A stretch of DNA of 64,000 nt from Saccharomonospora glauca K62 (GTDB lineage: Bacteria > Actinomycetota > Actinomycetes > Mycobacteriales > Pseudonocardiaceae), in contig NZ_CM001484.1 of NCBI RefSeq assembly GCF_000243395.2, forward strand, positions 2,970,524 to 3,034,523, written 5' to 3'. The notes under the pieces are model-generated. The model did not search any database. It was given only the letters and a program-made list of their open reading frames with translations, and was not told where the DNA came from. Shown here piece by piece: positions 6,554-63,568 of this stretch. The first letter of the stretch is position 1. Each line of letters opens with the position of its first letter. The position numbers and the translations under genes are program-made.

Positions 6554-7741
6554 TCAGTCGTCCTTCGAAGTGGCGGCGTCGAGGGCCTCTGGTAGTGCGG
6601 TGAGCAGGGCGTCGGCCTGCTCTCGGCTGACGATCAACGGAGGTGCCAGCCTGATCACGTCGGGCTGGACGGGATTGACGAGGAAACCGGCTCGCTGAGC
6701 GGCCGCGGCGACTCCCGCCGAGGCGGCGCCGTTCAGCACCACACCGAGTAACAGGCCCGTTCCGCGGACCGTGCGCACCAGTGGGTGTTCGAGGCGTTCC
6801 ACGCCGGCCGCGATCTCCTTGCCGAGTGCCGTGGCGTGGTCGAGCAGGCCATTCGCGGCGATGGTGTCGAGGACCGCGAGCCCCGCCGCGCAACAGACCG
6901 GGTTGCCGCCGAACGTCGTGCCGTGCTGGCCGGGCTCGAAGAGGGTCGCGGCCTCGCCGAACGCCAGGCAGGCGCCGAGCGGCAGGCCGCCCCCGAGTCC
7001 CTTCGCCAAGGTCACCACATCCGGTTGGATTCCCGCTCGCTGGTAGGCGAACCAGCTTCCGAGCCTGCCGATGCCCGTCTGAACTTCGTCGACCACGAGC
7101 AGGGCGCCGTGCCTGCGGGTGATCTCCCTGGCGGCTTTCAGGTAGTCCTCGCCGGGGACCACGACGCCGTTCTCGCCCTGGACGGGTTCCACGAAAAAAG
7201 CGGCGGTGTCGGAGTCGACGGCCCGTTCCAGCGCCGCGACGTCGCCGTACGGCACGTGCCGCACACCGGGCACCAGCGGCTCGAAGGGCTCTCGCTTGCC
7301 GGGTTGGCCGGTCAGGGCCAGGGCGCCCATCGTGCGTCCGTGGAAACCGCCCTCGGTGGCGACGACGGTGGTCCTGCCCGTGCGCCGGGTCAGTTTGAAG
7401 GCCGCTTCCACGGCTTCGGCGCCGGAGTTGCAGAACAGCACCTTGCCGTCCGCGATGCCGGACAGTTCCAGCAGCCGCTCCGCCAGTGTCAGCGCGGGCT
7501 CGTTGAGGTAGAGGTTCGAGGTGTGCCCGAGCGTCGCGATCTGTCGGGTCACGGCCGACACCACGGCGGGGTGGGCGTGTCCGAGCGCGTTGACCGCGAT
7601 ACCCGTGACGAAGTCGAGGTAGCGGCGGCCGTCGGCGTCCCACACCACGGCACCCTCCCCGCGGACCAGGTTCACCATCGGGGTGCCGTAGTTGTTCATC
7701 ATCACGGAACGCCACCGTGCTTGTGCGTCCTCATTGGACAT
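6554..7741 (-). CDS. argD: Acetylornithine aminotransferase
   Basis: PLP-dependent class III aminotransferase converting N-acetylglutamate semialdehyde to N-acetylornithine. [15 protein letters not shown] (phosphate binding), [13 protein letters not shown] and the lysine in [13 protein letters not shown] (Schiff base) are visible. About 395 aa, normal. The start overlaps the argB stop by 11 bp, indicating coupling. Position and context favour argD over related succinylornithine or GABA transaminases. Confidence 0.95.
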
Positions 7742-51573: not shown

Positions 51574-51647
51574 GCCCCCGTAGCCCAATCGGCAGAGGCA
51601 GCGGACTCAAAATCCGTCCAGTGTGCGTTCGAGTCGCACCGGGGGCA
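51574..51647 (+). tRNA. tRNA-Leu (anticodon CAA)
   Basis: 74-nt cloverleaf: acceptor GCCCCCG/CGGGGGC, D-arm GCC/GGC, anticodon stem GCGGA/TCCGT with loop CTCAAAA (anticodon 51608-51610), 5-nt variable loop CCAGT, T-arm GTGCG-TTCGAGT-CGCAC, discriminator A; CCA is not encoded. A TAAACT box at 51559-51564 precedes it. The variable arm is short, unusual for tRNA-Leu. Its 3' half is the attachment site of the element to the right. Confidence 0.9.
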
Positions 51648-51811: not shown

Positions 51812-52801
51812 TTACCGGCTCACCAGCTCTCGGAGCTCGTCCGGCGTCAACCAGGGTGATGTGCGGTGGATCATGCGGTGGCAGTTCGAGCACAGCAGCA
51901 CGAGGTCCTTCAAGCGGGTTGTCGTCTCTCCTGAGGCGTGCAGCGGGACTGCATGGTGGCACTCGATGTAGCCCTCCCCGCGGTCGCCGTAGACCTTGCC
52001 GAAGTCGAAGCCACAGACCTCGCACGCCAACCGATCGTGTGTCTTGAGAAACTCTTCGATCTTGCGCCTCCGTAGCTTCGGGTTGCGCTCCCGAGCCAGG
52101 TGACGCCTCTCAAGCAATCGCCCCTCAGCCGCCGCGGGCTCATCGCTCTCCTCCTCGGCAGGCGGATATGCGATCTCCTCGAAGAGGCCACGCTTTGCCC
52201 CTTCCCTGATCGCCGCGGCAGCAGCGCGCATCTCGTCAGGCCGTTCAAGGAAGTCCCGCAGCACTTCTCGGTCAATCGCGCCGCCTTTGGTGGGCTTACC
52301 GGTGTAGTCGGGATGCCAGGTGGCGATGTCGGCGGTCTTTCTCGAAACCCCGTTCGGGTTCCGGAACTTGGGCCCACGTACCTCCGGTGGGTGCAGCGGA
52401 AGGAGCTGTAGCAGTTCTGACAGTTCGTGAATGCGCGGGTCGTCCGCCCACAACCGGTACCAGTTGTTCTCGAACACAAGATCACATGCGAGGATGACTT
52501 CGTCCCGCACCCACGCTGGGGGTCGGGACGAAGTCACCTGGAATCCGAGCGCCTTTAGCCTCCTCGCGACCGTCTGCTCACCGCCCGAGAACTCTTGCGC
52601 TTGCAGTGGTTCCCGTCCTTCGAGATAGCCATGAGCAACACCGAGTATCGCCTTCGAGTCGTAGCTGTTCCCCTCGTGGAGCAGCAAGTACGAGCGTGCT
52701 TGCCCGTACCCGTACTTCGCCAAGAAGTCGTCTCGGCCAATTTGGTCGTGTTCAGCGATCGCTGCGAGCACCGCAGGACGTGTGACGTCGGAAATTCCCA
52801 T
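51812..52801 (-). CDS. McrA-like HNH endonuclease (probable modification-dependent restriction)
   Basis: About 329 aa. Residues 1-90 (VLAAIAEHDQIGRDDFLAKYGYG, HEGNSYDSKAILGVAHGYL) resemble the N-terminal head of ScoMcrA-type enzymes. A middle domain follows (WVRDEVILACDLVFENN, FRNPNGVSRKTADIATWH), also common in McrA-like proteins. The C-terminal HNH nuclease has CEVCGFDFG (near 260), ECHHAVPLH (near 279) and LCSNCHRMIH (near 305), with zinc ligands and catalytic His intact. Such proteins cut modified DNA. It lies at the element's edge, between the attachment site and int, a typical cargo position. The target modification cannot be read from sequence. Confidence 0.82.
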   Translation of the reverse strand: MGISDVTRPAVLAAIAEHDQIGRDDFLAKYGYGQARSYLLLHEGNSYDSKAILGVAHGYLEGREPLQAQEFSGGEQTVARRLKALGFQVTSSRPPAWVRDEVILACDLVFENNWYRLWADDPRIHELSELLQLLPLHPPEVRGPKFRNPNGVSRKTADIATWHPDYTGKPTKGGAIDREVLRDFLERPDEMRAAAAAIREGAKRGLFEEIAYPPAEEESDEPAAAEGRLLERRHLARERNPKLRRRKIEEFLKTHDRLACEVCGFDFGKVYGDRGEGYIECHHAVPLHASGETTTRLKDLVLLCSNCHRMIHRTSPWLTPDELRELVSR

Positions 52802-52841: not shown

Positions 52842-54254
52842 TCAATCGAGTTCCCTCGGCAAGCCGAGCACGCGGTTGATTCGTTCTCGTGCGGCGTCCT
52901 CCTGCCCAGCGAGGACCTTGGCGTAAATCTGGTGCAGGACCGCAACGGAATGGCCTGCCCATTCAGCCACCTGAGTCGACGGCACGCCTGCCGCAAGCCA
53001 CGTCGACACGCATGCGTGGCGCAAGTCGTACGGCCGCTTTCCAAGCACAGAGGTGTACTCGGCTTCGGTGAGTGCCGTCTTCCGCGCCTTGTCCCACACC
53101 CTGGCCACGGTCGATTCGGCAATGTCTCCTCCGACGAGGTTGCGGAAGAGGCGACCGTCCCCAGCCGTTCCATGACGCTCGATGTGTGCGTGCAGCAGCT
53201 CGGTGAGCGGCGGAGGGCAAGGTACATGCCTGATCTCGCCCTTCCCCCTCTGCTTGAGCTGCCGCCTGTCCCGGCGCTTCCCGGAATCGGTCCATGCGGC
53301 CCCTGCGGTCGGGGCTGTTTCCGAGATGAGCAATTCGCCCCATCCAGAGGACGGGAGCTGTAGGTCTTGCTTGCGGAGCATCGCGGCCTCTTCCGGCCGC
53401 AGCCCGGAGTAGTACATGGCTCCGAAGAAGGCGACGAGCATCGGGCCAGAGGACCGGCGAGGCTGTCCGTCGACACGCTGTTCACCAACGGCGGCGAGTA
53501 GGCGACGGGCCTGCTCCGGATTGATGACCACGCGCTTGTCGATGGCCTTGACTTCCTTGGGCGCAGTCCACTTGATGTCTCGGAGTCCGTTCACCCGAAG
53601 CAGCCGCCTCTCGACTGCGTACTCAAGCGCGTTGTAAAGAACAGCCCGCTTCCGAGCGACCGTCTTGGCCCCCGCAGGCTTGCCGTCCATCCGCAACGCC
53701 AACTGTTCGAGCACGCGACGTACAACAGCCGGATCCTCCAGCCGGGAGACCGGCAAGGTGTTCCCGTCGAGCCAGCGCAGCGCCTTCTCGACATCCCTTG
53801 GCTTGTCACCAGTTCGCCGCTTGGTGTTGAAGGCCCAGCCAGTCATCGCCCGGCGCAAGACCTTGTCTTCGGGCTTGCCTCGCGCCGATGTGAGCATGGC
53901 GAGCGTCGCTGTCGCCATCGTGTCAGCGTTACCGGCACGGGACTTCGCCGCCGCCCGTGGCCACTTCATGTCGATGTACTCCTGAGCGAAAGAGAACCAC
54001 GGCTTGTCGTCGAGGTCACGGCCGACACTCAGCGGAAGACCATCCGACACGCGGAAGGCCTCCCCTGCCTTCTGCGCAGATACAAGCATGGAACGAAAGC
54101 TGTCTGCGAGGGAGCGGGTGGCATACGACTTCGACCGTTCCTTGCCGCCCACCGACCAGCGAACGACATACGACTTGCGCCCTGGCTTACCGTTCTGCGA
54201 GCGGCCCATCTTCTCCCTGAGCTGCCAGATACGGACCTCGAAAGTCGTCTCCAT
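52842..54254 (-). CDS. int: Tyrosine recombinase / integrase
   Basis: About 470 aa. N-terminal arm-binding and SAM-like core-binding domains, then the catalytic domain with Arg in YYSGLRPEEA (near 284), DLRHACVSTWLAAG (box II, near 405) and WAGHSVAVLHQIYAKVL with the His/Tyr (near 432-441). The usual His of HxLRH is Tyr here (PYDLRH), which some actinobacterial integrases share. Start at ATG 54254, which overlaps the xis stop (TGATG). Integrates the element into tRNA-Leu. Confidence 0.93.
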   Translation of the reverse strand: METTFEVRIWQLREKMGRSQNGKPGRKSYVVRWSVGGKERSKSYATRSLADSFRSMLVSAQKAGEAFRVSDGLPLSVGRDLDDKPWFSFAQEYIDMKWPRAAAKSRAGNADTMATATLAMLTSARGKPEDKVLRRAMTGWAFNTKRRTGDKPRDVEKALRWLDGNTLPVSRLEDPAVVRRVLEQLALRMDGKPAGAKTVARKRAVLYNALEYAVERRLLRVNGLRDIKWTAPKEVKAIDKRVVINPEQARRLLAAVGEQRVDGQPRRSSGPMLVAFFGAMYYSGLRPEEAAMLRKQDLQLPSSGWGELLISETAPTAGAAWTDSGKRRDRRQLKQRGKGEIRHVPCPPPLTELLHAHIERHGTAGDGRLFRNLVGGDIAESTVARVWDKARKTALTEAEYTSVLGKRPYDLRHACVSTWLAAGVPSTQVAEWAGHSVAVLHQIYAKVLAGQEDAARERINRVLGLPRELD

Positions 54255-54445
54255 CAAGCAGCGGCCTCCTCGGTGTGAGCGTCGAGCCACCGATCGAGAT
54301 CACTCCGGCGGATACGGATCTCTCCGTTCGGCAGCTTGATGCACCTCGGCGCACGTCCCTTGGCGCGCCACTCGTAAAAGGTTGATCGAGCGATGTCGAG
54401 TTCTGCGCAGAGCTGCGCGACTGTGAGTTGTTGACGCTGACCCAT
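54254..54445 (-). CDS. xis: Excisionase / MerR-like HTH protein
   Basis: 63 aa: winged-helix DNA-binding domain LTVAQLCAELDIARSTFYEWRAKG, then PNGEIRIRRSDLDRWLDAH. This is the usual AICE excisionase immediately upstream of and translationally coupled to int. Confidence 0.9.
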   Translation of the reverse strand: MGQRQQLTVAQLCAELDIARSTFYEWRAKGRAPRCIKLPNGEIRIRRSDLDRWLDAHTEEAAA

Positions 54446-54490: not shown

Positions 54491-54673
54491 GTCCGCTACA
54501 AGCGCTACAAGCGCTACGTGCCTGGTCAGAGGCGTAGCGGATGGTGAGCGTGTAGCGGTTGTTGCCGCTACACGCGCGACGATCGCGAAGGTGTAGCGCT
54601 TACATCCGCTACACCCGCCGTGTCCGCTACAGCGCTGACCTGCGGTGTAGCGGCAGTAGCGGCAGTAGCGGCT
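54491..54673. repeat. Large dyad with twelve mirrored GTAGCG/CGCTAC motifs
   Basis: CGCTAC occurs at 54494, 54503, 54512, 54566, 54607 and 54625; GTAGCG at 54534, 54552, 54593, 54647, 54656 and 54665. About 90-bp arms are alignable as an imperfect inverted repeat centred on base 54582 (CGACGATCGCG): the motif start spacings 9, 9, 22, 18, 14 read the same outward on both sides of the central 27. A thirteenth copy lies at 54682. The right half encodes the C-terminus of the helicase-like gene (Ala-Ala-Thr repeats); the left half is non-coding. Candidate origin of replication or primase loading site. Confidence 0.8.
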
Positions 54674-56013
54674 GCGGGCAGGTAGCGGCTCCAGGCGTCG
54701 GCGAGGCCGCCGTCACCGTCGCGCCGGTAGCCCTTGGCTACCGCTCCAGTGGGTTGTCGGATGTTGCCGGAGCGGACGCCGTATTTGCCGAGGAGTTTGC
54801 CCAGTCCGCGGGCGTCGAGGGGCTTGCCCTGATACTCGGCCCAGGGTGCTTCGTCGAGGTTGTGTAGGGCGGTGAGGATGTCGGCGGTGGTCATGCGGTC
54901 GGTGTCGCGGTGGATGTAGAGCTGGCGGAGGTCGGCGAGGAGGCGGATGCCGAGGCTGTCGGGTTGGGTGGCGGCGTTGGCCACGAAGTACTCACACGCC
55001 GCCCGGGCGGTTTCGGGCCAGTGGTCGCCTGCCTCGTCGGCGATGGCGATCAGGGGCCGCCAGATTTCGGCGGAGCGGTCCCGCACCGAGGGCGGCATGG
55101 TCGGCCGGGCCGCCCCGACCCGCTCCCCCACGGCGGTCATCCACGCGGCCAGCCGCTCGCGCAGGGGGCGGGCTTCGCGTTCGACGTCTTCTTCCCAGAA
55201 CTCGGCGACGTGTTCGTCGGCGCGGCGGCGTTTCATGTGCACGGTGATGGCGCGGGTGGTGATGGTGGCCGGCATGTGCCCCGCGATCCCGGCCAACGCG
55301 GCCGGGGCGTAGACGGGAAAGCGCTCCACCTTCATCGCGCGGGCGTCGCCCACACAGCGGGCGATGGTGGCCGAGCGCTTGTACCCGGCATTCAGCATCG
55401 CGCGGAGGTCTTCGTTGTTGCCGCCGTTCTTCGGGTTGAAGATCGCATCGACCTCGTCGAACAGGATCGTCACCGGCCCGTCGGCCACCATGCGGAACAG
55501 TGCCGCGGTGGTGGCCGAGATCGTCATCTCCGGGGCACGGACGAGGAACTGGGCGACCTCGAGCACGCGGGTTTTGCCGCTGCCCGGCTCAGCCGAGTCC
55601 AGGATCAGCCGCGGGGTGACGTAGAAGTGGTCGGCGGCGTGGGTGTGGGCATACCAGAGGGCGAGCATGGGGGCGCAGTGCTCGCTCGGGAAGGCGTTGT
55701 AGCGGGCCACGAACTCCCGCACCGCATCCAGCACGCTCGCCCCGGACTCCTCCCCCGGCGGGGGCGGCCCGAGCCACGACAAGGGCCGTTCCGGAGCGGC
55801 CTCGGGTACCTCGGCACTCGGGGTCGCGCCGCCGTCGGCCACGCTGGCGGTGCCGGTGTGGGTGGCGTGCCAGACGGCCTGGCAGTTCTCGGAGCAGAAG
55901 TCCGGTGACGGCGACTCCCCGCGCTCTCGGCCGCACTGCACACACGCGGCGGTGGGGTCGGTGTCCTCGGTTAGGGCGTCGATGGCCGACAGTAGGGGAT
56001 CGGGTGTGGGCAT
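54568..56013 (-). CDS. DUF3631 helicase-like ATPase, replication protein
   Basis: About 481 aa. N-terminal zinc-ribbon CVQCGRE...FCSENCQAVWH (about 23-48), P-loop DSAEPGSGKTRVLE (near 145), Walker B TILFDEVDAIF (near 182), then the DUF3631 domain (RSAEIWRPLIAIADEAGDHW). The C-terminus is an Ala/Thr tail encoded by the dyad repeat. ATG 56013 overlaps the DUF4326 stop (TGATG). Partner of the primase-polymerase gene upstream; together they probably initiate and unwind the element's plasmid form. Confidence 0.85.
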   Translation of the reverse strand: MPTPDPLLSAIDALTEDTDPTAACVQCGRERGESPSPDFCSENCQAVWHATHTGTASVADGGATPSAEVPEAAPERPLSWLGPPPPGEESGASVLDAVREFVARYNAFPSEHCAPMLALWYAHTHAADHFYVTPRLILDSAEPGSGKTRVLEVAQFLVRAPEMTISATTAALFRMVADGPVTILFDEVDAIFNPKNGGNNEDLRAMLNAGYKRSATIARCVGDARAMKVERFPVYAPAALAGIAGHMPATITTRAITVHMKRRRADEHVAEFWEEDVEREARPLRERLAAWMTAVGERVGAARPTMPPSVRDRSAEIWRPLIAIADEAGDHWPETARAACEYFVANAATQPDSLGIRLLADLRQLYIHRDTDRMTTADILTALHNLDEAPWAEYQGKPLDARGLGKLLGKYGVRSGNIRQPTGAVAKGYRRDGDGGLADAWSRYLPAAATAATAATPQVSAVADTAGVADVSATPSRSSRV

Positions 56014-56321
56014 CAGGCACGCTCCTGGGCGGGCGGGTTGGCGATGGTGAGCAGCACGTCGGCGTGGCAGGGGTGGCCATCCAGCGGGCACCAGCACGCC
56101 AGGTCCCGTCCGGCCAACTCGGTCCGGGCGGCGGCGAGCAGGTCGGGCCTGCCGGTGATCCAGGCGCGGTAGCGGGCCACAGCCGCAGCACGAGCGGCGG
56201 GGGTGGCTGCGCAGCGGAACGGGTTGCCGAACCGGGTGGGGCGACCCACGTAGACCGCGCCCACCGGAAGTGCCCTGCCCCGGCGCCGCTGTATCCGGCG
56301 AGGTCGGTGAGGGGAATGCAT
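56013..56321 (-). CDS. DUF4326 domain protein
   Basis: About 102 aa. The DUF4326 pattern is complete: VYVGRPTRFGNPFRC, ARYRAWITGRPDLL, LAGRDLACWCPLDGHPCHADVLL, with conserved Trp, Cys and His suggesting a metal or nucleotide site. It is embedded in the replication operon, coupled on both sides (TAATG with the primase stop, TGATG with the ATPase start). Function unknown. Confidence 0.82.
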   Translation of the reverse strand: MHSPHRPRRIQRRRGRALPVGAVYVGRPTRFGNPFRCAATPAARAAAVARYRAWITGRPDLLAAARTELAGRDLACWCPLDGHPCHADVLLTIANPPAQERA

Positions 56322-57199
56322 TACGCCGCCACCTCCGCATCCGAACGCGACGGCAGGCTGCGGGGCTGGGTGCGGCCCTTGGCCAGCCCGGCGGCGATGA
56401 CCCGCGTGACCTCGGCCGGGGTGCAGCCGCACTCGGCGGACACGAGGGCGTGGGCGGCATGGGTGAGCTCGGCGCGGGCGTGCTCGGCATCAAGCAGCCC
56501 GCCGCCGACGAGCCGCCCCACCCGGTACGCCGCCCGCGACAGCACCTCGTTGTGCCGACCGGGCGGAGCGGAACGCACTTCGTCGCACTCCCCGCGCAAC
56601 GCGCTGGCGGCATACGCGCTCGGCCGCGCCACCGGCCCCACACCCGCCGACGAGGTAGCGGGCGCGGGACGTTCGCAAAGGACTTGCAGCAGCCAGCCGG
56701 GCAGCGGGGCCGGGTCGGTGTCGTCGGCCAGCTCGTATCCGCCCTCGGCCAACACCGAGCCGGGCGCGACGACGTAGCCGCCGCCAGAGCGGGTGTCGAT
56801 GCGCGGCGCGAGCTGCCCAGCCGTGTTCCGCAGCCGCACCCCCGGCGGGAGCGTGAAGTACAGGTGACGGCCACCCGAGGGCGTGGCCACGGTGTAGGTC
56901 GCGGGCAGCTCCACGCCACGCTCGTCGGCGAGCCTGGTGAGGGCGGTGGCACCGTCGACCTCACCGGGCTGCTTGGCGGTGTCGCAGTCGACCACCAACA
57001 GCCGCGACGGCCCGGTAGCGAGGCCGATGTTGAACGCGCCGCTGCCCCAGCAGCGCGCGATGCGGTCGCGGTCGATGGTGGCGCGGGCCTCCCACCCCCG
57101 GACCGCGGGCCGCTTAGAGGCGGATACGAGGGGGAAGACGTGCCAGCCCATCGCGGCGCAGTACAGCGCCCACTCCCGCAACACATCCTGACTGGACAT
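56321..57199 (-). CDS. Bifunctional primase-polymerase (prim-pol)
   Basis: About 292 aa. Archaeo-eukaryotic primase fold: FPLVSASKRPAVRGW, FNIGLATGPSRLLVVDCDT (catalytic Asp pair near 68-70), TPSGGRHLYFTLP (the sxH motif near 110), DTRSGGGYVVAPGSV. A helical C-terminus follows (residues about 200-292). Priming and possibly polymerising replication of the excised element, as in RepPP-type AICEs. Start at 57199, 32 bp after the HExxH gene. Confidence 0.9.
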   Translation of the reverse strand: MSSQDVLREWALYCAAMGWHVFPLVSASKRPAVRGWEARATIDRDRIARCWGSGAFNIGLATGPSRLLVVDCDTAKQPGEVDGATALTRLADERGVELPATYTVATPSGGRHLYFTLPPGVRLRNTAGQLAPRIDTRSGGGYVVAPGSVLAEGGYELADDTDPAPLPGWLLQVLCERPAPATSSAGVGPVARPSAYAASALRGECDEVRSAPPGRHNEVLSRAAYRVGRLVGGGLLDAEHARAELTHAAHALVSAECGCTPAEVTRVIAAGLAKGRTQPRSLPSRSDAEVAA

Positions 57200-57784: not shown

Positions 57785-57886
57785 CCTCCCCAGACTCCCC
57801 GAAGCGGCTTCTCTGCAGGTCACTTCGGGGAGAGCGGTCTGGGGAGGCAGTCGGGGAGATCTCCCCGCCTCCCCAGGTGGCTCCCC
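57785..57886. repeat. Array of GGGGAG/CTCCCC motifs at the translocase 3' end
   Basis: CTCCCC at 57786, 57795, 57861, 57869 and 57881; GGGGAG at 57827, 57841 and 57853. The motifs form nested dyads: GCCTCCCCAGA with TCTGGGGAGGC, CTCCCCGAAG with CTTCGGGGAG, and the perfect palindrome GGGGAGATCTCCCC (57853-57866). It lies between the tra gene stop and the rep operon start. In Streptomyces plasmids the TraB-binding clt locus has this position and repeat character. An operator of the rep promoter is the alternative. Confidence 0.65.
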
Positions 57887-60099
57887 TACTCGCTGTCGGC
57901 GTCCGGGGTGGTCTCGCCATCCGCGCCGTGATCACGTTCGGTGATTGCGGCGCGGACCCGTTCGGCGCTGACGTTCATGACACCGTGGGACTTGTAAGGC
58001 GCGGCGTCGTGCTCGCTGAGGTAGGCGCGCAGACGTTCCAACGTCCAGTCGCCGTAGGTACGGGCGTCGAGCTGGGCGAGCCCGTTGATGACTTCCTGCG
58101 TGCGCAGGCGGGACTTGTCGCCGAGCACGGTGGCGATGTCGGCCAGCGGATCACGGGCCTGTGTGGGCTCCTGTTCGGCGGGTTCAATCGCGGCTTCCTC
58201 GCGCAGAGCGACGGCGCGCTCGACGACGGGGGTGATCTCGTCGACGCCCTTCTCCTTGCGCACGTAGTGGGAGCGGATCAGGCCGGGTTTCTTGGCGAAC
58301 CCGGCGGCCATGGCGGTGCCGACGTCCTCGCCCGCGACCAACGTGGTGGCGGAGTATCCGGCCTTGTGCATGCCGGTACCGAGGATGGCGTCGTTGCCTT
58401 GGTGATCGTTGATGGCGAAGGCCACCCGATGGCTTGCCGTTTTGGAGATCCCGCGCGGGAGGCTGCCTGCGTCGGCGTCCGGAGTGATCCACAGCATCGT
58501 GATCGCGGTCTTGCGGGCCTTCTTGGTGACCTTCAGCGCGAGCTCTTTGGCCAGCTCAGCACGCTTCTTCTCTTCCTTGCTGCCGTTGTGTGGGGTGAAC
58601 AGCTCGTGCACCTCGTCGAACACGACCACGCGAGGCCGCAGGCGCGGGTCACGCTCGGCGAGTTCGCGGGTGACCTTGGCTTCCTCCCCGCCGAGATCCT
58701 CCAGGATCTTGCCGCGTTCGCTGACCTCGTCGACGAGCTCGTGCAGCTTGTCCATCGCGGCTTCGATGTGCTCTACCTCGTCGCCCTTGACCAGGGAGCG
58801 CAGCCGCGGCTTCATCGGGTCGTAGTCGACGTTGTAGGCCAATACGTGCACGTCGATGTCGACGAGCGGGTCGAGCATCGCGCCCAGCAGCAGGCAGATG
58901 ACCAGCGACGACTTGCCCGAGCCCATGATTCCGGCGATCAGGTAGTTGCTCGCCATGAGCTTGGCGATGACCTGCTCGCCTCGGGCGTCGACGGCCACGG
59001 GCACGCCCTTGAAGTAGTCGGCGGTGCCCTCGTGCAGCAGCGGCCACTCCGGCACCGGACCGGTGAGCATGCCCTGATCTGCCACCCACAGATCGAGCAC
59101 GCCGGGCTGGTCCTTCGGCTCAGTGGGCCAGACCTCGATCGGCTTGCGCAGCAGGTTGTGCGCCAGCACGTGCTTGCGCTTGGCGATCTCCTCCACCGGC
59201 ACCTGCCGCGGCAACAGCAACTGTGTGTGCCAACCGTTGCCGACGCGGGTGGTCGGTGACACCCACCGCGGCTGCCAACCTTCCTTGAACGCCCTGGTCA
59301 ACGGGCCATACCCGAGCTCGCGCAGCGCGGCCAGAATTGCGCCCTCATCCGGCACCATGTCCCGGCCCGCAGCCTCGTCCCCGGCCACGGTGGTCCACTT
59401 CGGTTGCCAGTCCGAGTGCTTGCGGCCCTGGTCCCACAGGTAGAGCACGCCGAGCCCAAGGCCGCCGGTAAGCAGAGCGACACCGTAGGCAGTGCCGAAC
59501 CACCACAGCCAGCGAATGGCGTCGATGGCCGCGCCGAGCGGTTCGAGCACCATGCCGGCATCTCCGTCGGCGACGGCCAGCACGATGCCCAGCGCGAGCA
59601 GCAATCCAATGCCGGAGGCGGCGCAGATGGCGATGGCTTTGGCGAGGTGGGCGGGAGCTTTGAGCCAGTCCATGTGCCGCTCGTGCCGCTGCTGCCGCGC
59701 TCGCGCCTCGCGCTCCTCCCACTCGCCGAGGCGGTCCCAGTCGCCCTGGGCCTCGGCGGCCCGCAGCAGCCGCTCGTAGCGGCTCGTGCCGCGCGAGTCC
59801 CGTACCCGCCTCGCCACCACAGCCGCCCCGGCGGGGATGTAGAGAGCGTGACGGATCGCCGACTTGGTGCCGGTGACCACATACGGGGCGGAGGCGCGCC
59901 GCCACTCGACGGCCTGCTCGGCCATCCGCAACCGGGTCTCCTCGCTGATGTGTGGGACCGGCAGGCGGCGGGTGTTGAACGTCGGCCGCGGGGTCTCGGC
60001 CACGATCTCGGCATCGATCACATCGTCGGCCGACTGAGCTTCCGGGCGCAGCGGCACCACAGTGGCGTCCTGTGGCTCGGGGTCGCGCTCGTGGGTCAT
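57886..60099 (-). CDS. FtsK/SpoIIIE (TraB)-type DNA translocase
   Basis: About 737 aa. N-terminal region with two membrane helices (about 155-235), then an FtsK-like ATPase: Walker A AGIMGSGKSSLVI (near 390), Walker B RVVVFDEVHELF (near 490). The C-terminal part (REAVINGLAQLD-like QEVINGLAQLDARTYGDWTLERL, about 670-725) looks like a DNA-binding winged helix. It would move double-stranded DNA between mycelial cells. The ATG overlaps the DUF2637 gene stop (ATGA). Confidence 0.9.
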   Translation of the reverse strand: MTHERDPEPQDATVVPLRPEAQSADDVIDAEIVAETPRPTFNTRRLPVPHISEETRLRMAEQAVEWRRASAPYVVTGTKSAIRHALYIPAGAAVVARRVRDSRGTSRYERLLRAAEAQGDWDRLGEWEEREARARQQRHERHMDWLKAPAHLAKAIAICAASGIGLLLALGIVLAVADGDAGMVLEPLGAAIDAIRWLWWFGTAYGVALLTGGLGLGVLYLWDQGRKHSDWQPKWTTVAGDEAAGRDMVPDEGAILAALRELGYGPLTRAFKEGWQPRWVSPTTRVGNGWHTQLLLPRQVPVEEIAKRKHVLAHNLLRKPIEVWPTEPKDQPGVLDLWVADQGMLTGPVPEWPLLHEGTADYFKGVPVAVDARGEQVIAKLMASNYLIAGIMGSGKSSLVICLLLGAMLDPLVDIDVHVLAYNVDYDPMKPRLRSLVKGDEVEHIEAAMDKLHELVDEVSERGKILEDLGGEEAKVTRELAERDPRLRPRVVVFDEVHELFTPHNGSKEEKKRAELAKELALKVTKKARKTAITMLWITPDADAGSLPRGISKTASHRVAFAINDHQGNDAILGTGMHKAGYSATTLVAGEDVGTAMAAGFAKKPGLIRSHYVRKEKGVDEITPVVERAVALREEAAIEPAEQEPTQARDPLADIATVLGDKSRLRTQEVINGLAQLDARTYGDWTLERLRAYLSEHDAAPYKSHGVMNVSAERVRAAITERDHGADGETTPDADSE

Positions 60100-62764: not shown

Positions 62765-63568
62765 TCAGCGGATGCGGCCGGAGACGCTGCGGGCCTGCAC
62801 GAGGTGGACGTGGCCGCGGCGGGTGATCGAGCCGGACACGGTCTCCACCCGCACCGGAGTTGAGCCGGTGACGGCCACGGCCACCGCGCCGGAGACGGTG
62901 GCGATCGAGCCGCCGCTCTGAGCGCCGTGGACGGCCACCGCGCCGGAGGTGGTGTTCAGTGACAGCGGCCCGGTGGTGGTGTCGAGGTGGATCGCGCCGG
63001 ACACGGTTTGGGCGGAGACGGCCCCGGCCTGCCCGCGCTGGGTGATCGAGCCGGAGACAGTGTCTGCCCGCACCGAGGTGCCGCTGGGCACGGCGACGAT
63101 CACCCGCACCGCCCCGCCACCAGCCGAGCCGATGGACACGCGATGACCTCCGATGAACACGCCACCACCGCCGACGGTGACGTTGCCGTTGCCGGTGACC
63201 ACCACGCCGACACCACCGAAGTTCATGTCGCCGCCGCTGTGGAAAGCGCCGCTGAAGGTCTGTGTGACGGTGCGCCCGTTGACGATCGTCGTGACGCTGT
63301 TTCCGTGCCCTGAGACCGTCTGCACCACGCTGCCGCCGTGGCCACCGCGGTGGCCTCCGTCCTGGGGCAGCCGCACGATCAGCGTGCTGCCGGACTGGCG
63401 CACCTCGGCGCGGCGGATGCGATCGGTGGCCTGCTCGTCCCCGTCGACCATCGGCACCAGCGTCACCGTCGCCCGGCCACCCTGGGTGCAGTCGATGGTG
63501 AGCGAGTCCGCCACACCCGAGGCGTGCACCGCATCGATACCGCCGCTGAAGTTCTCTGTCCTGCTCAT
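62765..63568 (-). CDS. DUF4097-type beta-helix repeat protein
   Basis: About 267 aa, no signal peptide. The C-terminal half is built of short repeats TVSGSITQRG, TVSGAIHLDT, TSGAVAVHG, TVSGAVAVAV, TVSGSITRRG, SVSGRI, typical of DUF4097 beta-solenoids. A glycine-rich middle section (VVTGNGNVTVGGGGVFIGG) extends the repeat pattern. ATG 63568 follows CAGGGAGCT. Such a protein is unusual cargo in a conjugative element; function unknown. Confidence 0.72.
   Translation of the reverse strand: MSRTENFSGGIDAVHASGVADSLTIDCTQGGRATVTLVPMVDGDEQATDRIRRAEVRQSGSTLIVRLPQDGGHRGGHGGSVVQTVSGHGNSVTTIVNGRTVTQTFSGAFHSGGDMNFGGVGVVVTGNGNVTVGGGGVFIGGHRVSIGSAGGGAVRVIVAVPSGTSVRADTVSGSITQRGQAGAVSAQTVSGAIHLDTTTGPLSLNTTSGAVAVHGAQSGGSIATVSGAVAVAVTGSTPVRVETVSGSITRRGHVHLVQARSVSGRIR

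Follow-up and report, generated by a model that had tools for sequence, protein, structure and literature searches.

The array of twelve CGCTAC/GTAGCG hexamers that lies 3' of the DUF3631 gene in Saccharomonospora glauca K62 very probably serves an AICE-type integrative element as its origin of replication. Judging from sequence comparison and a structural model, its reader would be RepAM (DUF3631), the initiator helicase that the element itself encodes. The layout of the array recurs among related elements; the hexamer itself appears to change together with a small number of residues in the wing of the winged helix that ends RepAM.

A hexamer dyad in an AICE-type element

The window, by which we mean the whole stretch of 64,000 nucleotides that was analysed (NZ_CM001484.1, positions 2,970,524 to 3,034,523), carries on its minus strand, in this order, genes for Tra, Prim-Pol and DUF3631, the array, and genes for an HTH_17 xis-like protein and a tyrosine integrase (Table 1). 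Since the 21-base end of tRNA-Leu recurs at G000:C1:3038608-3038628, the element would span ~16.5 kb, with its right end 4.1 kb past the end of the window. The part of the element inside the window thus displays the components of a RepAM AICE: DUF3631, int, a xis-like gene, prim-pol, an FtsK-type tra and a direct attachment repeat. DUF3631 (PF12307) is the family named RepAM after the pMEA300 initiator (PMC3218068). A gene with an HNH endonuclease domain (window 51812-52801) sits between the attachment repeat and the integrase, and ARAGORN calls a tRNA-Arg (ccg) at window 62845-62924 within a DUF4097 reading frame of the element, a call that may be spurious.

Table 1. Features of the element and its array, in window coordinates.
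Feature	Position	Strand	Remarks
Dyad of twelve CGCTAC/GTAGCG iterons, proposed replication origin	54493..54671	none	centre 54582; from positions, dyad score and shuffles
Thirteenth GTAGCG, outside the symmetric pattern	54682..54687	+	
Outer iteron triplet, RRR in gene orientation	54647..54670	-	9-bp period; coding
Outer iteron triplet, FFF in gene orientation	54494..54517	-	9-bp period; past the repAM stop codon
Left anchor GCAGGTCAG	54635..54643	-	position and sequence recur across loci
Right anchor CTGACCAGG	54521..54529	-	
repAM (DUF3631), proposed initiator; predicted to be an AAA+ ATPase ending in a winged helix	54568..56013	-	PF12307, E 4.6e-66; start codon inferred
Prim-Pol (bifunctional primase/polymerase)	56321..57199	-	PF09250, E 1.9e-49
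HTH_17 protein, excisionase-like by position (xis)	54254..54445	-	PF12728, E 5.4e-13
Tyrosine integrase	52842..54254	-	PF00589; start inferred from overlap with the xis stop codon
FtsK/SpoIIIE-type transfer protein (Tra)	57886..60099	-	PF01580, E 7.7e-7
Attachment repeat, 3' end of tRNA-Leu, 21 bases	51627..51647	+	

An earlier, sequence-only reading of this DNA had described twelve hexamers in the order FFFRRF|RFFRRR (F, CGCTAC) with start spacings of 9,9,22,18,14 | 14,18,22,9,9, and order and spacings are exactly those claimed: on the + strand CGCTAC starts at 54494, 54503, 54512, 54566, 54607 and 54625 and GTAGCG at 54534, 54552, 54593, 54647, 54656 and 54665, the two halves of the series running from 54494 to 54566 and from 54593 to 54665. 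The test of significance suggested at the time was run: the best ungapped dyad scores 29 (matches minus mismatches), compared to a maximum of 13 in 500 dinucleotide shuffles. Even when the shuffles left all 13 hexamers intact, none of 2000 reached 29 and the highest score was 22, so that the symmetry is more than a by-product of many hexamers. The same reading had the arms aligning nearly base for base, a wording somewhat too strong for a dyad that is otherwise real, as a repeat search returned 81-nt arms, 17 nt apart, that are 70% complementary. It had not included the two anchors, GCAGGTCAG and CTGACCAGG, which form a further inverted feature, one that is shared even by elements whose hexamers differ. 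That the right (higher-coordinate) arm is coding was borne out, the repAM stop codon occupying 54568-54570. As a single strand the array folds well (z -5.8); a reading as a hairpin and nothing else was dropped, because what was seen to recur between elements is the repeat layout.

The array among DUF3631 loci

A DUF3631 match is present in 112 of the 297 genomes of the window's family. For the comparison we used 173 loci, a non-random sample made up of the window, the 30 best family matches, the best 80 of 474 relatives, two plasmid records and 60 picked regions (40 with a window-like domain length, 3 extending exceptions and 17 others). These hold 158 distinct DUF3631 C-termini, 156 of which were testable, with at least 250 bp of downstream DNA. 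An array was scored if a repeated hexamer exceeded the maximum of 30 shuffles and/or if the anchor pair GCAGGTCAG...CTGACCWGC was found with at most 2 mismatches in all. On this basis an array and/or anchor pair lies 3' of DUF3631 in 144 of the 156 loci, and neither was found in 12. Homologous elements lacking any such array, which the sequence-only reading had named as the outcome that would count against an origin, are thus not the rule, and the origin reading came through the comparison because of these 144 loci and because six of the 11 refetched exceptions (below) carry the dyad elsewhere.

The typical layout consists of three reverse hexamers, GCAGGTCAG, inner hexamers of both orientations, CTGACCWGC and three forward hexamers; the commonest full layouts among the eight well-defined hexamer types are RRR>FFRFRR<FFF (15 loci) and RRR>FFRR<FFF (9 loci), where > and < denote the anchors. 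In the 136 typed loci with anchors at no more than 3 mismatches, which served for the counts of orientation, spacing and stop codons, the hexamers left of the left anchor are R in 275 cases and F in 8, those right of the right anchor are F in 264 and R in 9, and the outer hexamers are spaced by 9 bp in 283 cases, the next commonest value accounting for 5.

The stop codon of repAM follows no such rule, as it falls before the left anchor in 62 of these 136 loci, between the anchors in 24 and after the right anchor in 50. Much of the array is thus coding in the 74 loci whose stop codon lies beyond the left anchor, and one might see in it just a low-complexity tail of RepAM, repeated at the level of the protein. 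We regard this as almost certainly wrong, given the 62 loci in which the protein ends before the left anchor and the use of more than one reading frame by the hexamers in 66 of the 69 loci that have four or more coding hexamers. It had also been proposed that selection acts on DNA and protein together, of which the first half is supported and the second is not, the protein tail not being what is conserved; we conclude that selection would act mainly on the DNA, with the RepAM tail following, since the stop codon varies in position and the coding hexamers use several frames.

The anchors alone do not identify an origin. Used as a search pattern, the anchor pair matches in 81 of 297 genomes, compared to 13 for a reversed-pattern control; among the places listed only about 11 show hexamers by eye, and many others resemble unrelated inverted repeats, which makes the pair non-specific.

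Eleven of the 12 exceptions were refetched with ~19 kb of DNA (the twelfth, L067, had 21 kb) and scanned for opposed pairs of hexamers with a period of 9. In six of the 11 (L329, L331, L333, L336, L337 and L338) a full dyad with anchor-like elements in the same layout lies 8.0-12.9 kb from DUF3631, and L328 has a further relocated dyad at 7.6 kb; the scan was empty both in 70 shuffles of the exception loci and across the first 50 kb of the window. L337 and L338 combine the wing motif NIRFPDG with CGTCCC arrays, the pairing seen in the main set. In L329 and L338 the element boundaries are uncertain, and since a second integrase lies close by, the array there may belong to a neighbouring element. 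Duplicated dyads, a few hundred bases apart, were seen in L333 (2750-3450) and L331 (16000-16860). The opposed period-9 scan recognised no array within the ~19-21 kb of L067, L330, L332, L334, L335 and L339, a count from which a weak match in L334 (GGGCGC, 6 copies, without anchors) was left out; all six have Tra and integrase matches, and L067, L332, L334 and L335 have Prim-Pol matches.

Two loci have repeats upstream, beside the start of DUF3631. CGTCAC occurs eight times in L155 (~6850-7210) and CAGGGA eight times in L152 (~965-1100), each reached by 0 of 200 shuffles; L156 is not significant, its value being reached by 44 of 200. We had considered the repeats of L155 and L152 as relocated origins and dropped this idea because dyads with anchors (CGTCCC, CGGTAAC) were found further away, which makes them additional repeats, distinct from the origin dyad. 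A complete CGTCCC dyad in L327 (~6890-7110; G012:C1 near 276996) stands beside an integrase and a DUF3987 protein, and no DUF3631 was detected in the 14 kb around it. The only DUF3631 match of that genome, L002, lies far off and also uses CGTCCC. A different initiator may recognise this word, or RepAM may be supplied to the element in trans; it could represent a satellite or a second initiator family.

Arrays occur with two transfer systems. Among array loci that extend over 13 kb or more, 70 in number, there are 47 with integrase and relaxase, 19 with integrase and FtsK-type Tra, 4 with integrase only and none with both transfer types (Tra by tblastn with three Tra queries; one relaxase case checked with Pfam). 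DUF3631 and an integrase are the genes seen in both transfer classes, Tra and relaxase. In L060 (7677-13828) and similar Streptomyces loci, RepAM and the array sit in integrase/relaxase (MobA/VirD2-like) elements that gave no FtsK-type Tra or Prim-Pol match.

Hexamer words and candidate readers

The hexamer word differs between elements. Given as R forms in gene orientation, the words of the 156 loci are CGTCCC (41), TCCGTC (33), CGCTAC (18, including the window), CGTACC (13), CGCGAC (7), CGTAAC (6), CGGTTAC (2), CGGTAAC (2), CGCAAC (1) and several ACTCGT/ACCCGT/TGCCGTC-like types, with 18 loci untyped. TCCGTC marks a Streptomyces group with fewer copies and was called from at least three matches. 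The 138 typed loci include hand corrections of L120, L122 and L164; L147 was too short, leaving 137 for the column scan and the ATPase tree. Downstream of DUF3631 in the untyped L127, copies of CGCGAC and CGCTAC share one origin, which looks like a hexamer transition in progress.

The word does not covary with the integrase, the type of excisionase, the presence of Prim-Pol or the transfer system. The array of the window has xis and int immediately downstream, a place that would suit arm-type sites for integrase or excisionase, or an operator controlling xis-int. We consider either function highly improbable for four reasons: (i) the attachment repeat is ~2.8 kb from the array; (ii) integrase and hexamer are decoupled, the integrases being less than 40% identical or without a 150-aa alignment in 351 of the 865 pairs that share a hexamer and are at least 75% identical in the ATPase, and L142 and L137 having 90% identical integrases and different hexamers; (iii) a single hexamer is found with excisionase type A as well as with type B (CGCTAC, 2 and 3; CGTCCC, 9 and 15; CGTAAC, 2 and 1), though most loci are unclassified; and (iv) the relocated arrays lie 8-13 kb from a DUF3631 that adjoins an integrase. 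Known FtsK/TraB sites are short repeats, as are these, and the element encodes a DNA translocase, so that the array could in principle be a clt-like transfer site read by the FtsK/TraB protein. This, too, is very unlikely, as the 47 relaxase loci above gave no Tra match with any of the three tblastn queries and as the hexamer follows the wing residues of RepAM. The array had been tied to a prim-pol/DUF3631 module; the link to DUF3631 stands and that to Prim-Pol does not, since Prim-Pol was undetected by tblastn, which very diverged copies could escape, in 53 of the 72 array loci whose upstream DNA exceeds 3 kb. It is mainly on this ground that Prim-Pol was set aside as the reader of the array.

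Within RepAM the signal is confined to few positions. In pairs matched for ATPase identity, reference columns 348 (0.77) and 353 (0.65) stand out of 371, the next reaching 0.31 (137 loci). Residue 348 is N with CGTCCC (41/41) and TCCGTC (33/33), T with CGTACC (13/13), D with CGCGAC (7/7) and V or P with CGTAAC (6/6), while the 17 CGCTAC loci have N (14) or D (3). A tree of the ATPase only implies 29 changes of the hexamer; of the 323 columns scored on it, the top five (356, 348, 353, 312 and 340) all fall in the winged helix, with p values from 7e-7 to 1e-3 that are uncorrected for the 323 columns. A single CGTACC clade was rejected (p-AU 1.15e-10), and T at 348 accompanies CGTACC in all 4 of the independent pairs that lie on well-supported branches, four pairs being too few to reach 0.05 in a sign test; CGCGAC versus CGCTAC offered only one well-supported independent pair. 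Both the clade test and the independent-pair analysis left out L063, L096 and L109, of the Streptomyces TCCGTC-like group. Because hexamer and wing change together, related elements would carry origins with different words.

The winged helix as a whole is no more coupled to the hexamer than the ATPase (Mann-Whitney p = 0.14, all columns); only specific wing positions stand out. The wing signal was not seen in the Prim-Pol subset (54 loci, 10 hexamer changes, hence little power), where no column of Prim-Pol or of the RepAM wing was conspicuous: the best DUF3631 column belonged to the ATPase (p 2e-4), and 348 ranked eighth (p 0.01). Between CGTACC lineages, winged-helix identity is also raised outside the wing, in 3 of 4 bins (e.g. 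0.67 versus 0.59; the top bin is equal, n=2), and for this reason some hexamer switches may represent the exchange of a cassette of winged helix and array.

Predicted fold, mode of action and comparison with known systems

An AlphaFold2 model of RepAM made with 60 sequences (pLDDT 91.1, pTM 0.84) can be read as an AAA+ core with a winged helix at its C-terminal end, which takes up aa 357-444 of the 481-aa frame. Reference residues 348, 353 and 356 (model residues 336, 341 and 344; offset 12) sit in the first wing strand, at the wing tip and at the start of the second wing strand, respectively. The top Foldseek matches were human OCCM and MCM subunits, ORC, RuvB, a homohexameric MCM, PriRep1 (7pds; from SaPI5) on dsDNA and the C-terminal region of NrS-1, with modest TM scores to the query of 0.23-0.44 among the 50 matches listed. 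RepAM proteins have been predicted to be rolling-circle initiators with nick sites like that of pC194 (Ghinet et al., 2011; PMC3218068), in which case RepAM would nick the DNA at a double-strand origin and the dyad would be its binding region, an idea to which the strong single-strand folding of the array lends itself. We hold it to be unlikely, because the predicted fold is AAA+ plus winged helix and because Pfam, at E up to 0.1, finds DUF3631 alone in RepAM and no recognisable rolling-circle Rep domain. The two-fold symmetry with its opposed iteron triplets would also fit two helicases better than one nick site.

Under the preferred reading, an origin bound by RepAM, the element would be excised and RepAM would then bind the hexamers via its winged helix. 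On each side of the axis the outer triplet together with the inner hexamers might seed one RepAM ring, and the constant GCAGGTCAG/CTGACCWGC anchors would position the complex. Two helicase rings, each the mirror image of the other, could in this way be loaded, open the duplex and begin bidirectional replication, with priming by Prim-Pol where present and by host enzymes elsewhere. The sequence-only reading had offered an origin, an iteron array or a hairpin priming site; the first two find support in the comparative evidence, while the hairpin, compatible with the fold, gained no separate support. We are evenly divided over a broader picture, in which one scaffold of mirrored triplets and constant anchors would serve actinobacterial integrative elements with two transfer systems, its word having been rewritten repeatedly along with two to three wing residues, so that close relatives would drift apart into separate recognition groups. 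In this picture some elements (L327), which have the origin and lack the initiator, may replicate with the RepAM of another element.

For many actinobacterial AICEs and relaxase-type integrative elements, a large class, these results point to a concrete origin and to a mechanism, a helicase that loads itself; PMC3218068, which names DUF3631, predicts the initiator of this class to be of the rolling-circle type. Nature also provides here eight or more variants of initiator and origin, among which the specificity for DNA appears to be set by a short segment of the wing, so that initiator-origin coevolution and compatibility become directly testable and such elements can be recognised and typed from sequence. 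Titles and abstract openings among the literature matches listed contain no description of the RepAM array, and we do not claim its absence from print. The RepAM paper of te Poele et al., 2006, in Microbiology, may already describe or map the pMEA300 origin. Phage P4 alpha is a primase/helicase initiator that reads short repeats, the ori/crr iterons, with a C-terminal DNA-binding domain, and it is in this mode of reading that it resembles the RepAM system; P4 unites primase and helicase in one protein, and its repeat layout differs from that of the RepAM arrays.

PMC4234260 describes the P4 primase as of the bacterial (Toprim) type and compares P4 with pRN1. As in the RepAM system, pRN1 ORF904 is an initiator with a winged helix and a prim-pol, and a 100-bp stem-loop, low in sequence conservation and high in structural conservation, acts in cis just 3' of rep; unlike the RepAM system, pRN1 is an archaeal plasmid with a single polypeptide and a stem-loop without iterons (PMC4234260). 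The pMEA300 replicon has the same initiator family as the window and the modules int, rep and tra, with Prim-Pol in some such elements; its RepAM is described as a predicted rolling-circle initiator, in contrast to the AAA+ fold modelled here, and the word 'iteron' does not occur in the text of that article as available (Ghinet et al., 2011; PMC3218068).

Sequence, model and analogy are best read as a RepAM-bound origin that would work like SaPI Rep/ori. An SaPI-type origin contains an A+T-rich region, whereas no A+T-rich unwinding region was seen in the RepAM arrays of 122 loci, the inner G+C being 0.676 versus 0.679 in the DNA 200-400 bp downstream. The window RepAM has no sequence similarity to SaPI Rep structures (phmmer against PDB sequences: 4 matches with E of 1 or below, of which the best has 0.16 and not one is a helicase), and we therefore say that it 'works like', not that it 'is a member of', the SaPI Rep family. 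In SaPI islands the iterons that follow the rep gene directly are read by the C-terminal domain of Rep, and the islands encode an AEP-family primase (PMC7581432, eLife 2020); the window element has Prim-Pol. An initiator helicase with iterons directly downstream, as reported for SaPI (PICI) Rep/ori and SCCmec Cch2, is likewise what the RepAM replicon offers: the model predicts an AAA+ helicase with a C-terminal winged helix, the repeats (array and/or anchors) directly follow rep in the 144 of 156 loci, and binding is suggested by the covariation. Distinctive of the RepAM arrays are the triplets of 9-bp period in each arm, the constant anchors and the switching of the hexamer between relatives, and the elements that carry them live in actinobacterial hosts and bring their own conjugation or mobilisation genes.
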